A stretch of 64,000 nucleotides of DNA from Guptibacillus hwajinpoensis. Lineage in GTDB: Bacteria > Bacillota > Bacilli > Bacillales > Guptibacillaceae. The notes beneath the pieces were generated by a model, which had not been told where the DNA came from, ran no database searches, and saw only the letters and a list, made by a program, of their open reading frames with translations. Location: contig NZ_JAIVAE010000013.1 of assembly GCF_020171785.1 (NCBI RefSeq), forward strand, positions 1-64,000, read 5' to 3'. A program made the translations under genes and the position numbers. Shown piece after piece: positions 4,976 through 31,894 of this stretch (position 1 is the stretch's first letter; every line of letters begins with the position of its first letter).

Positions 4976-5079
4976 GGCTCTCATCTATCAGGTTTATCAC
5001 CCGCTGGAGTTAGCACAGTATCCCATGGACCTGTTGCTGAGGTTTCGTAGGGCCAGTCCCTCCACCTCTCTGGATAAGA
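4976..5079 (-). promoter_or_regulatory. SAM riboswitch (S-box) controlling mmuP-mmuM
   Basis: On the minus strand the S-box core is clear: CTTATCCAGAGAGGTGGAGG, then GACTGGCCCTACGAAACC, TCAGCAACAGG and GTGCTAACTCC in order. High SAM stabilises the aptamer and lets the downstream terminator (4922-4954) form; low SAM favours read-through. This explains control of the S-methylmethionine salvage operon by methionine status. The aptamer is the class I S-box of Firmicutes. Confidence 0.95.
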
Positions 5080-5142
5080 AAATATATTTTATCAAAAATA
5101 CCAAGTTAGACAGGATTTGTCAAGATGCGACGATAAAACCAT

Positions 5143-28130: not shown

Positions 28131-29786
28131 TTAAAGACGATAGACTCTTGCCTCATATGGCTTTAAAACAATAGAATCATTCACTTCTTCAATAACAGGA
28201 TAGTTATTCAAAAGTAGCTGGTTCATCTCCAACGTAAGATTCGATTTAAATACTGCTGGCTCGATCGATAGATTTGTGAGAACAAGAACTTTGTCATCCG
28301 CTGTTGTTCTTGTATAAGCATAAATTTGCGGATCATCTTCAAGTAGTAAATCATAGCTTCCATAAGTGAAAACAAGATTGTTTTTCTTCAGCTCAATCAT
28401 CTTCTTATAGAAAGATAGAATGGAATGATCATCCGCTTCTTGCTTCTCAACATTAATATCTGTATAGTTTGGATTTACTTTCAACCACGGTGTTCCAGAA
28501 GAAAAGCCAGCGTTATTATCGGCGTTCCACTGCATCGGTGTTCGGCTATTATCACGAGAAGATGCCCAAATTACTTTCATAATAGCATCATGAGCTACTC
28601 CTGCTTCTCGCTGAATGCGGTAGCGATTTTTGTCGGCTACATCATCATAATCTTCAATAGAAGGATATTGAACATTGGTCATACCAATTTCTTGCCCCTG
28701 GTAAATAAATGGCGTTCCTTGCATAAGGAAATACATCGCTCCCATTGAAGTGGCACTTTCTCTCCAATATTCCTGATCGTTCCCCCAGGTTGACACAACA
28801 CGCGGCTTATCGTGATTCTCAACAAACAAGGCATTCCACCCTTTATTTTCAAGGCCCTTTTGCCAACGTGTTAGCACTTTTTTTAGGGAGACAATATCAA
28901 GATCAGGTTTCTCTTCGGCATCCCATAATCCAAGATGTTCGAATTGAAAAATCATGTTCATTTTGCCGTCTTTTTCATCTACCCATTGATCAGCTTCATC
29001 AATGCTTACACCATTCGCTTCTCCAACCGTCATCACATCGTACTTCGAATACGTTTCATCCTTAAATTCTTGAAGGAACTCCTGAATTCCCTTTTGGTTC
29101 ATATGCATATCAAATGAAGAAACATACTTTTCATTTTTGGGGTTCGGCATATCAGGAAACCCTGAGCGCTTCTTAATGTGGCTAATGGCGTCGATACGGA
29201 AACCATCAATCCCCTTATCTAGCCACCAGTTCACCGTGTCATACAGCGCTTCGCGGACATCAGGATTTTCCCAGTTCACATCTGGCTGTTTCGTTGAGAA
29301 GACGTGGAGAAAATACTGATCTGTTTTCTTATCATATTCCCACGCCGATCCTCCGAAGATGCTTTCCCAGTTATTTGGCTCCTTACCATTCTTTCCATCG
29401 CGCCAAATGTACCAATCACGCTTCGGATCTTCTTTCGATGAACGGGATTCAATAAACCACTGGTGCTCATCACTTGTATGGTTTAAAACGAGATCAATGA
29501 TCAATTTCATATCCCGTTTATGAACTTCTTTTAACAACAAATCAAAGTCTTGCATGGTACCGAAGTCTTCCATGATGTCCTGGTAATCAGAAATGTCATA
29601 CCCATTATCATCGTTAGGAGATTTGTACATTGGACATATCCAAATCACATCGATGCCAAGATCTTTAATATAATCTAACCTCTGAATGACGCCTTGTAAG
29701 TCACCAATACCATCACCGTTTGAATCTTGGAAGCTCCGTGGATAAATTTGATAGCCGACAGCTTCTTTCCACCAGATTCTTTTCAT
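28131..29786 (-). CDS. GH13 alpha-glucosidase
   Basis: A 551-aa cytoplasmic GH13 enzyme of the oligo-1,6-glucosidase/alpha-glucosidase subfamily. Nucleophile Asp199 is in GFRIDAISH, acid/base Glu256 in VGEANG, and Asp326 in VENHDKPR. The residue after the nucleophile is Ala200; in this subfamily Val there goes with alpha-1,6 preference and Ala with alpha-1,4, so a maltase-like activity is favoured. ATG at 29786 is used, 7 nt after GAGGTG. A LacI-type palindrome lies 39 bp upstream. No transporter is linked. Confidence 0.9.
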   Translation of the reverse strand: MKRIWWKEAVGYQIYPRSFQDSNGDGIGDLQGVIQRLDYIKDLGIDVIWICPMYKSPNDDNGYDISDYQDIMEDFGTMQDFDLLLKEVHKRDMKLIIDLVLNHTSDEHQWFIESRSSKEDPKRDWYIWRDGKNGKEPNNWESIFGGSAWEYDKKTDQYFLHVFSTKQPDVNWENPDVREALYDTVNWWLDKGIDGFRIDAISHIKKRSGFPDMPNPKNEKYVSSFDMHMNQKGIQEFLQEFKDETYSKYDVMTVGEANGVSIDEADQWVDEKDGKMNMIFQFEHLGLWDAEEKPDLDIVSLKKVLTRWQKGLENKGWNALFVENHDKPRVVSTWGNDQEYWRESATSMGAMYFLMQGTPFIYQGQEIGMTNVQYPSIEDYDDVADKNRYRIQREAGVAHDAIMKVIWASSRDNSRTPMQWNADNNAGFSSGTPWLKVNPNYTDINVEKQEADDHSILSFYKKMIELKKNNLVFTYGSYDLLLEDDPQIYAYTRTTADDKVLVLTNLSIEPAVFKSNLTLEMNQLLLNNYPVIEEVNDSIVLKPYEARVYRL

Positions 29787-29824
29787 ATCTCTACACCTCA
29801 TCTATTTAGTAAAGTTCGTAAAGT

Positions 29825-29836
29825 GCAAACGTTTGC
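29825..29836. promoter_or_regulatory. LacI-type operator before alpha-glucosidase gene
   Basis: GCAAACGTTTGC is a perfect 12-bp palindrome centred on CG, like MalR-type operators and related to cre, which it matches only with mismatches at the outer positions. A second CG-centred palindrome, AAAGCGCTTT, lies about 25 bp further upstream (29854-29863) and resembles a weak cre. Confidence 0.6.
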
Positions 29837-30014
29837 CTAAAAATCGATAAAAAAAGCGCTTTCTTTTTTGCGTATTTACTTCTACCTACTTGTAGTTTAC
29901 TTGGATTTGTCTCATTTATCAATATGAATTTGAAAGTATTTTTTAGGTCGTAATGTTAGATGCTATTGACGAGCGCCCAAGACATCTATAAAATACGCTA
30001 ATAATACGTACCAG

Positions 30015-30085
30015 GTTTCGTATAATTTTGGAGATATGGTCCAAAGGTTTCTACCAAACTACCGTAAATGGTTTGACTACGATGA
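30015..30085 (+). promoter_or_regulatory. Purine riboswitch aptamer, guanine type (C74)
   Basis: The G-box core is unmistakable: TATAAT, GATATGG, GGTTTCTACC, CCGTAAAT, GACTACG, in the canonical order and spacing, with P1 closed by CGTA/TACG. The specificity position (nt 30077, in GACTA) is C, which pairs with guanine or hypoxanthine; adenine riboswitches have T there. It precedes the adenine deaminase gene. Confidence 0.93.
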
Positions 30086-30136
30086 CAATTCTGGCAATGT
30101 GAATCTGTCATCCTCTGTCTAGACTGAGAGGAGCAA
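30081..30136 (+). promoter_or_regulatory. Expression platform with possible Shine-Dalgarno sequestration
   Basis: GATGACAATTC (30081-30091) and GAATCTGTCATC (30101-30112) form a long stem sharing bases with the P1 side of the aptamer. Then CCTCT (30112-30116) can pair with AGAGG (30127-30131), which is part of the GAGAGGAG ribosome site. No poly-T follows either stem, so translational rather than transcriptional control is likely. Confidence 0.55.
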
Positions 30137-30141
30137 AAAAA

Positions 30142-31857
30142 ATGGATAAACTAATCCAACGAATTCAAACAGCTGCTGGCGAGCTCCCAGCCGAATGTGT
30201 AATTAAAAATGGACTTGTTTTAGATAGTTACAATCTCGAATTTATTCAAGCTGACGTCGCAATCGTCGGTGGCGTTATTGCAGGAATAGGAAAATTCGAA
30301 GGAAAGCACGTGATTGATGCAAGGGGAAAGTATGTTGTTCCTTCTTTAATAGATGCCCACGTTCATATTGAATCCGCAATGGTTCCTCCATCTGAATTTG
30401 CAAAGGCCGTCCTTCCTTGTGGGGTAACGACCATCATCACTGACCCTCATGAAATCGCAAATGTTTCAGGGACTGAAGGCATTTCGTATATGCTTCAAGA
30501 TTCTGAGAATGTCCCAATGGACATATACTTTATGCTCCCTTCAAGCGTTCCTTCTACACCGTTTGAAAACTCCGGAGCGATTCTTTCGGCTGAAGACTTG
30601 AAGCCTTTCTATGATCATAACCGCGTTCTCGGTTTGGCAGAAGTGATGGATTATCCATCAGTCGCTACTACATCTCCTTCTATGATGCACAAATTGCATG
30701 ACGCACAAAACAGAAAGATAGATGGCCACGCAGCAGGTCTTGATACTCGTGCTTTGAATGTTTATAAAACGGCCGGCATTGGAACTGACCATGAATGTAT
30801 CACGGCCGAAGAAGCACTTGAGCGAATTAAACGAGGAATGTATGTTTTTATTCGTGAAGGCTCCGTCGCGAAGAACTTAAAGCAGCTTCTTCCCGCTGTA
30901 ACCGAGCGAAATGCAAGACGATTCATGTTCTGTACAGACGACAAGCATATTGACGACCTGATCACAGAGGGAAGCGTTGACCATAATGTTCGACTCGCTA
31001 TCCAAGAAGGGATAGATCCTCTCGTAGCGATTCAAATGGCATCACTAAATGTAGCAGAGTGCTTTGGTTTAAAAACGAAAGGAGCGATCGCACCAGGACT
31101 TGATGCTGATTTCCTTCTCCTAGATGACGTCGAATCATTTTCTGTTGCAAACGTTTATCAAGCTGGAGAACTTGTTGCAGAAAAAGGGAAAACGAAGAGG
31201 ATTGCGAAAGTAACGCCTTCAAAAAGAATAACCAATTCCGTTCATTTACCAACGCTTCAAAAAGAACACCTTCATTTACCCGTAACGGACAAAGAAGCAA
31301 ATGTCATTCAATTGATTCCTAATCAGATTGTGACAAAAGCAAAAAAGCTCATTGTTGATCGCAACGCGAACAATGGTTTTGTTTCAAGTGCTGAAAAGGA
31401 CCTTATGAAACTAGCTGTTATTGAACGGCATCACCATACTGGAAACATTGGCCTTGGCATTGTCGAAGGTTTTCATTTCCAAGATGCAGCGATAGCAACA
31501 ACCGTTGGACACGATTCCCATAACTTAATTATGGCCGGCACAAACGATGAAGATATGATGAAAGCAGCAGAAGTTATTCAAGAAATGCAGGGGGGCTTAG
31601 TAGTTGTGCGAAATCAGGAAGTGATTGCGAAATTACCACTTCCCATTGCAGGCCTTCTTTCAACGAACGATTACCCAACTGTCGTGAAAGAACTAGAAGA
31701 AATCGATCGGGCGCTACACGAAATAGGTGCCCCGAGGGATTTTAATCCTTTTTTAACACTTTCCTTTCTAAGTCTTCCAGTCATACCAGAACTTAAATTA
31801 ACCGACATGGGGCTTTTTAATGTTCAAGAATTTCGCCACATTTCCATTAATGAGTAA
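30142..31857 (+). CDS. adeC: Adenine deaminase
   Basis: A 571-aa amidohydrolase converting adenine to hypoxanthine and ammonia. The metal site begins DAHVHIESAM (His73, His75); DPHEIANVSG, DGHAAGLD and FCTDDKH follow in the order of the Ade/YerA family, and the C-terminal HHHTGNIGLGIVEGF is typical. Length equals the family norm. The ATG follows GAGAGGAG, which is part of the riboswitch platform. It is a lone gene ending in a loopless palindromic terminator. A hypoxanthine/guanine-sensing switch would give product-type feedback. Confidence 0.94.
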   Translation: MDKLIQRIQTAAGELPAECVIKNGLVLDSYNLEFIQADVAIVGGVIAGIGKFEGKHVIDARGKYVVPSLIDAHVHIESAMVPPSEFAKAVLPCGVTTIITDPHEIANVSGTEGISYMLQDSENVPMDIYFMLPSSVPSTPFENSGAILSAEDLKPFYDHNRVLGLAEVMDYPSVATTSPSMMHKLHDAQNRKIDGHAAGLDTRALNVYKTAGIGTDHECITAEEALERIKRGMYVFIREGSVAKNLKQLLPAVTERNARRFMFCTDDKHIDDLITEGSVDHNVRLAIQEGIDPLVAIQMASLNVAECFGLKTKGAIAPGLDADFLLLDDVESFSVANVYQAGELVAEKGKTKRIAKVTPSKRITNSVHLPTLQKEHLHLPVTDKEANVIQLIPNQIVTKAKKLIVDRNANNGFVSSAEKDLMKLAVIERHHHTGNIGLGIVEGFHFQDAAIATTVGHDSHNLIMAGTNDEDMMKAAEVIQEMQGGLVVVRNQEVIAKLPLPIAGLLSTNDYPTVVKELEEIDRALHEIGAPRDFNPFLTLSFLSLPVIPELKLTDMGLFNVQEFRHISINE

Positions 31858-31862
31858 AGAAG

Positions 31863-31894
31863 AAAGCAGCATGGCGCCGGCGCCATGCTGCTTT
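31863..31894. terminator. Perfect 32-bp palindrome acting as bidirectional terminator
   Basis: AAAGCAGCATGGCGCC is followed at once by its exact inverted copy and T residues, between convergent adeC and the Fe-alcohol dehydrogenase gene. The central GGCGCCGGCGCC has no natural loop, so the inner bases must open. Confidence 0.85.

Follow-up and report, generated by a model that had tools for sequence, protein, structure and literature searches.

A guanine-type riboswitch upstream of adenine deaminase in Guptibacillus hwajinpoensis: a probable translational OFF switch with terminator-bearing relatives

Guanine-type purine aptamers bind hypoxanthine in addition to guanine. The product of the Vibrio add gene is an adenosine deaminase. 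According to passages of PMC11477304, nucleotide 74 is the specificity switch of purine aptamers, with C74 standing for guanine and U74 for adenine. The described systems closest to the locus analyzed here are both treated in excerpts of PMC10907184: the guanine riboswitch of Bacillus subtilis xpt-pbuX (RF00167, C74), which uses an antiterminator and a terminator, and the add riboswitch of Vibrio vulnificus, an adenine-sensing translational ON switch. In the sections of a 2007 survey considered here (PMC2258182), Firmicutes riboswitches are described as acting mostly by transcription attenuation and those elsewhere mostly by translation attenuation; the survey presumed translational control for leaders in which no terminator was predicted, and it described dual platforms with the ribosome binding site inside the terminator. 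Where a riboswitch and adenine deaminase are mentioned together, in passages of PMC8191784, PMC9561414 and PMC11145556, the gene concerned is Vibrio add, whose product two of these papers call adenine deaminase. The purine-switch targets named in excerpts of a B. methanolicus transcriptome study are pur, xpt-pbuX, guaA and pbuG (PMC4342826), and passages of PMC11141002 and PMC3519856 do not link a guanine riboswitch to adenine deaminase; the whole word 'ade' is absent from the main text of a 2013 regulon survey (PMC3766115), as is 'deaminase' from a 2022 paper on guanine variants (PMC9295807). In searches of the open-licence PMC literature we found no guanine switch on adenine deaminase, which is no proof of absence.

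The leader of an adenine deaminase gene (ade) in the window, i.e. the whole stretch of 64,000 nucleotides of Guptibacillus hwajinpoensis DNA that was analyzed, shares with xpt-pbuX the aptamer fold, the J2/3 and J3/1 core, the specificity base and the expected OFF logic, whereas the 3' arm of its downstream hairpin holds the Shine-Dalgarno (SD) sequence and no U-run was found. The likeness to add lies in a purine aptamer that would govern access to the SD ahead of a purine deaminase gene; unlike add, the window leader has C74, is predicted to switch expression OFF and precedes a TIGR01178 adenine deaminase. We infer the ligand, the direction (OFF) and the level of control (translation) from sequence comparison and folding models, and consider a translational OFF switch on adenine deaminase, triggered by guanine or hypoxanthine, to be the probable function of this leader.

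The aptamer and its surroundings in the window

A preliminary description, made from the sequence alone, had placed a guanine-type purine aptamer ahead of adenine deaminase, and model searches bore this out. The aptamer (29998-30099, forward strand) matched RF00167 along the full model (positions 1-102) with 80.2 bits, compared with a gathering score of 37; the gene that follows on the same strand (30142-31857, 571 amino acids, ATG at 30142) matched TIGR01178 with 663.6 bits, compared with a cutoff of 472.5, and its start lies 42 nt from the aptamer 3' end. In the Rfam alignment J3/1 corresponds to 30076-30077 (motif GACTA), and the specificity base, position 74 in the usual numbering, is C30077; all 22 rows of alignment A3 carry a C here. 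J2/3 reads GUUUCUACC, which is canonical, and together with both loops agrees with the family consensus. With C at nucleotide 74 in J3/1 and a canonical J2/3 core, the aptamer is real and of canonical guanine type, and by the C74 rule it is predicted to sense guanine. We reject adenine sensing on sequence grounds: the specificity base is C both here and in all 60 aptamers found upstream of ade outside the genus. P1 is formed by 30015-30022 and 30078-30085, with a fully complementary core (UCGUA 30018-30022, UACGA 30078-30082) and partly mismatched outer Rfam pairs; some relatives (L011 and L014 among them) are predicted to extend P1 in the bound fold (30015-30017 with 30084-30086), which the window leader is not. 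Because hypoxanthine is the product of adenine deaminase, a guanine switch on ade would most likely provide product feedback on adenine deamination.

A promoter-like sequence (TTGACG, 17 nt, TAAAAT; 29966-29994, forward strand) ends 3 nt 5' of the Rfam match, so that the transcript probably starts near the 5' edge of this match. The consensus scan detected two such sites compared with 1.5 expected in shuffled sequences and is weak evidence alone; TTGACG and a TATA-box-like element, read by eye, are found upstream in all 14 leaders of the genus.

Several other features were noted in the window. A perfect palindrome (GCAAACGTTTGC, 29825-29836), resembling an operator of the LacI/CcpA family, lies upstream of a phosphotrehalase/alpha-glucosidase-family gene (28131-29801, reverse strand). 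A perfect inverted repeat (AAAGCAGCATGGCGCC/GGCGCCATGCTGCTTT, 31863-31894) separates ade from the convergent gene for an iron-type alcohol dehydrogenase and probably serves both as a terminator. A SAM riboswitch (4978-5080, reverse strand, 89.9 bits) precedes genes that were named from reading as amino-acid-permease-like and homocysteine-methyltransferase-like; as the listed start of the permease reading frame overlaps the aptamer, the true start is probably located further in.

The expression platform of the ade leader

No terminator-like site was detected on either strand between 29780 and 30300, and a second, separate scan also found none; in all 14 genus leaders, the terminator scan likewise revealed no hairpin with a T-rich stretch behind it. 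The window and all genus leaders lack the intrinsic terminator of transcription-terminating Bacillus purine switches, in agreement with the earlier observation that poly-T is missing. Within the window's own genome this is the exception: U-run terminators (-11.1 to -33.4 kcal/mol) lie behind seven of its nine purine aptamers, and the two terminator-less leaders are that of ade and L009. Guanine would likewise lower the amount of full-length mRNA if transcription were attenuated at a site lacking the canonical U-tail, or ended by Rho once translation is lost; intrinsic terminators do occur in most homologous ade leaders (37 of 60 aptamer leaders outside the genus by our classing), and Barrick and Breaker remark that termination in certain bacteria may not need a canonical U-tail (PMC2258182). 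We nevertheless regard termination as unlikely, given that no hairpin with a T-rich stretch was found in the window or any genus leader and that the SD lies in the conserved downstream hairpin, behind which the window sequence is A-rich.

Three further purine aptamers deserve mention. L009 (1501-1663) and L008 (G000:C9:127925-128266) are divergent and 139 nt apart, and similar pairs occur in 7 of the 13 other genomes of the genus. L008 has a terminator (-11.2) before a gene that is nucleoside-transporter-like by its translation; L009, without a terminator, precedes a gene that is nucleoside-hydrolase-like by its translation and has downstream a GGTAGAGACG complementary to the J2/3 core. In L007 (1486-1586, reverse strand), which precedes a gene read as permease-like, J3/1 is TTGTCTACAAGG, with U where an A usually precedes the specificity C.

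The ribosome binding site of ade (AGAGGAG, 30127-30133, forward strand; SD core AGGAG 30129-30133) is faced by an anti-SD arm, UCCUCU (30111-30116, forward strand), which pairs with 30127-30132 in the fold obtained with P1 forced. Within it, CCTCT (30112-30116), to which sequestration of the ribosome site had been ascribed before, is complementary to AGAGG (30127-30131), just 5' of and into the SD. All six pairs of this sequestor are present in 13 of the 14 genus leaders, including that of the window, with a single mismatch in L022. The hairpin containing the SD is conserved without covariation: apart from the L022 mismatch its pairs are invariant among the 14 leaders, the SD strand being constrained anyway.

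While the anti-SD element of the earlier picture stands, that picture missed the antisequestor, which joins the aptamer to the SD hairpin. This anti-P1 helix consists of GAUGACA (30081-30087) and UGUCAUC (30106-30112), both on the forward strand. Across 13 distinct genus rows 98.9% of its cells are paired, whereas slid versions of the helix pair far less (16.5 to 61.5%). Two pairs are changed on both sides. C-G is replaced by U-A in L022 and L023, A-U becomes G-U in L020, and the last pair is broken in L022. The covariation score was reached by 3 of 500 shuffles and the number of doubly changed pairs by 24 of 500, values that depend on two related rows and can arise from kinship alone without structure. 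The anti-P1 helix shares U30111 and C30112 with the sequestor, and G30081 and A30082 with P1. Its overlap with the sequestor amounts to two pairs, and parts of both hairpins coexist in predicted folds. A GUC block (30117-30119, forward strand), invariant in all 14 genus leaders, may pair with GAC (30075-30077), which would lengthen the antisequestor in the manner of the antiterminator of terminator homologues; it appears to resemble the CUCUGUCAAAC block of these homologues, in which GUCAAAC could pair with the GUUUGAC that ends P3.

All 14 Pseudalkalibacillus genomes examined, 13 besides that of the window, have an aptamer directly upstream of ade, at a distance of 40-68 nt from the start codon. 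The 14 leaders agree without exception in TCATCC, CTGTC and GAGAGGAG although Ade identity falls to 67%. Since the arrangement occurs in 14 of 14 genomes and these blocks persist despite a loop of variable length (9 to 32 nt) between the anti-SD and SD arms, it stands above chance, and we take this genus-wide conservation as support for a translational mode of control. A conserved aptamer whose platform is a relic without switching would agree with the unremarkable stability of the whole leader (z of only -1.15; matched by 26 of 200 shuffles) and with decayed aptamers before ade elsewhere (L162, 38.5 bits; L186, 17.7 bits); against the invariance of the platform blocks across 14 genomes and the compensatory change in the anti-P1 helix, a relic seems extremely improbable.

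Proposed mechanism and folding of the leader

In the proposed switch, the P1 3' strand would pair with the anti-P1 arm (30081-30087 with 30106-30112) as long as no ligand is bound. This helix would withdraw U30111 and C30112 from the anti-SD arm, leaving a short sequestor from which the SD can open, with GAC/GUC pairing perhaps keeping the rest of the anti-SD arm in an internal loop. Upon binding of guanine or hypoxanthine, P1 would be locked and take over G30081 and A30082, the anti-P1 helix would be shortened or lost, and UCCUCU (30111-30116) would pair fully with AGAGGA (30127-30132), covering the SD. The same two helices could also act chiefly through mRNA stability, with bound, untranslated mRNA being degraded; this is a general consequence of SD occlusion, and as the main level of control we hold it to be very unlikely compared with translation itself.

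When P1 was forced in folding calculations, the predicted opening of AGGAG fell in all 14 genus leaders, with a median of about 100-fold; in the window leader, opening of the whole SD decreased from 0.027 in the free ensemble to 0.0002. None of 100 platform shuffles reached the value of the window leader, none of 100 that of L018 and 1 of 100 that of L023; with 25 shuffles per leader, 12 of the 14 leaders outdid 90% or more of them. Forcing P1 in the window leader yielded a fold with all six sequestor pairs in which the anti-P1 helix gave up no more than its two outer pairs, so that the proposed exchange amounts to a two-pair migration. The free ensemble contains the anti-P1 helix with a probability of 0.98-0.99 and leaves the SD bases unpaired with only 0.19-0.27; they pair with aptamer J2/3 (0.15-0.50) or still with the anti-SD arm (0.12-0.49), depending on the length of coding sequence included. 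Of 12 genus leaders folded together with 40 nt of coding sequence and scored for a 7-nt site, 3 showed little or a reversed effect (L015 1.2-fold, L019 1.5-fold, L021 0.36).

The pairing of the ligand-free SD with J2/3, which binding would break, is one reason to consider a guanine ON switch, in which binding raises adenine deaminase expression, for example by releasing the SD. In L170 and L176, moreover, TTTTTAG comes after the anti-P1 stem (score -13.4), which would terminate transcription in the ligand-free state, and in L009, from the window's own genome, forcing P1 raises the predicted opening of the SD from 0.44 to 0.80. For the ade leaders of the genus, the window included, forcing P1 had the opposite effect in 14 of 14 cases, and an ON switch is in our view highly improbable.

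Coupling between P1 and the SD is also found in leaders that carry terminators. It exceeded 2-fold in 27 of 36 terminator leaders, with a separation from terminator-less leaders of one-sided p 0.04; 21 of 36 terminator and 30 of 35 terminator-less leaders outdid 90% or more of the shuffles derived from them, six terminator leaders being compared with 8 shuffles and the others with 25. Both the P1-forcing and the shuffle tests left out L142, L133 and L178. According to these models, P1-dependent coupling weakly separates the platform types. SD occlusion in the stretch after P1, folded alone, was rejected as a test of platform type (terminator-less versus terminator, p 0.71). Folding alone is no proof of translational control, since P1 is coupled to the SD in the models of many terminator leaders as well and since the ligand-free fold leaves the SD only partly open; the case for it in the window is carried by the absence of a terminator.

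Platforms of ade leaders in the Bacillales

The arrangement reported earlier for the window locus is correct, but its breadth had been missed: a guanine aptamer was found in 60 of 182 ade upstream regions outside the genus, all 60 with C at the specificity base, and most with terminators. The 182 regions comprise 16 relatives, 66 genome-contig loci and 100 regions fetched from among the matches listed in an order-wide search (227 of 397 genomes with a match); the collections were pooled without de-duplication, and L040-L046, which lie on the same contigs as genus genomes, were excluded. A sequence pattern recovered 59 aptamers, and the covariance model applied to the 100 fetched regions gave 50 strong matches, 49 of them shared with the pattern, the other being L142. 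Rfam and the pattern identified the same 10 aptamers in 56 older non-genus loci, and Rfam confirmed all 20 fetched leaders tested; of the 66 genome-contig loci, 40 were checked by Rfam and 26 by the pattern alone.

We classed the 60 leaders as 37 with a terminator, 21 without and 2 borderline. The borderline leaders, L133 and L178, were set aside, being terminator-less by scan and showing by eye a hairpin with a short T stretch. Some assignments are judgements: L170 and L176 (-13.4), L209 (-12.6), L130 (-7.4), L160 (-1.4), L031 (-1.9) and L137 (-3.5) were taken as terminator-less despite their scan scores, because in L170, L176 and L209 (GAGAGGG...CCTTCTC) the scored stem is the anti-P1 stem and the other four are weak; the L209 score was seen in one terminator scan and not kept by the other. 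For L034 and L134 a terminator was evident in one scan and poorly or not at all in the other, and L142 was classed as terminator by eye.

Terminator-type ade leaders of Bacillales such as L026, L062, L115 and L166 have the same aptamer type and gene as the window, with a similarly placed CU-rich arm and GUC block, and differ by a hairpin with a U-run between the CU-rich arm and the SD. The 21 terminator-less leaders fall into three groups, code f44 together with Peribacillus glennii (L068; 12 leaders), f13 (5) and f7 (4), the last of which also contains terminator leaders (L036, L167). They combine a Rfam-confirmed guanine aptamer with a CU-rich arm near the SD, and differ from the window genus in hairpin layout and in their separate branches of the Ade tree. 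The preliminary contrast with the usual purine switches of Bacillus thus holds within the genome and does not extend to these three groups; the window platform is unusual and not unique.

Two further kinds of leader were observed. In L157 (upstream of ade, G085), the 3' arm of the terminal hairpin is the SD, and the U-run forms the spacer to the ATG (GAAGGAGAGGTTTTTTATG); judged from its sequence, this leader combines terminator and sequestor and is a dual platform. L162 and L186 contain the apparently decayed purine aptamers mentioned above (scored with model R1), perhaps lost riboswitches.

In a quick Ade tree of 70 proteins the window genus forms one clade (SH-aLRT 100). The minimum number of changes between terminator and terminator-less leaders is five, counted over the 59 labelled rows; the tree is unrooted, includes 11 of the 14 genus rows, lacks L142 and leaves 18 of 67 inner branches open, making direction and exact number uncertain. 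Terminators are inferred to be ancestral because of their wide spread, and relatives seem to have changed mechanism several times on the same gene. One reading of the folding models is that a CU-rich arm that complements the purine-rich 3' strand of P1 is bound to be an anti-SD as well, so that terminator leaders would be pre-adapted to dual control or already use it. We would put slightly below an even chance the idea that the guanine-ade switch moved several times between transcriptional and translational control in Bacillales, and did so easily by way of its purine-pairing anti-P1 arm, which suits a purine-rich strand and hence also pairs with the SD. If this were true, many ade leaders regarded as transcriptional would already exert dual control, and loss of the terminator would make them translational in one step.

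To our knowledge, how a riboswitch moves between terminator and translational platforms is little documented. With one aptamer and one gene within one bacterial order, natural leaders of both kinds are at hand, together with one dual leader (L157) and decayed ones, and their comparison could test the path. The arrangement in the window is neither unique nor a new class; its interest lies in the pairing of guanine sensing with ade and in the repeated change of platform, with adenine deaminase as a recurrent target of guanine sensing under a simple product feedback.
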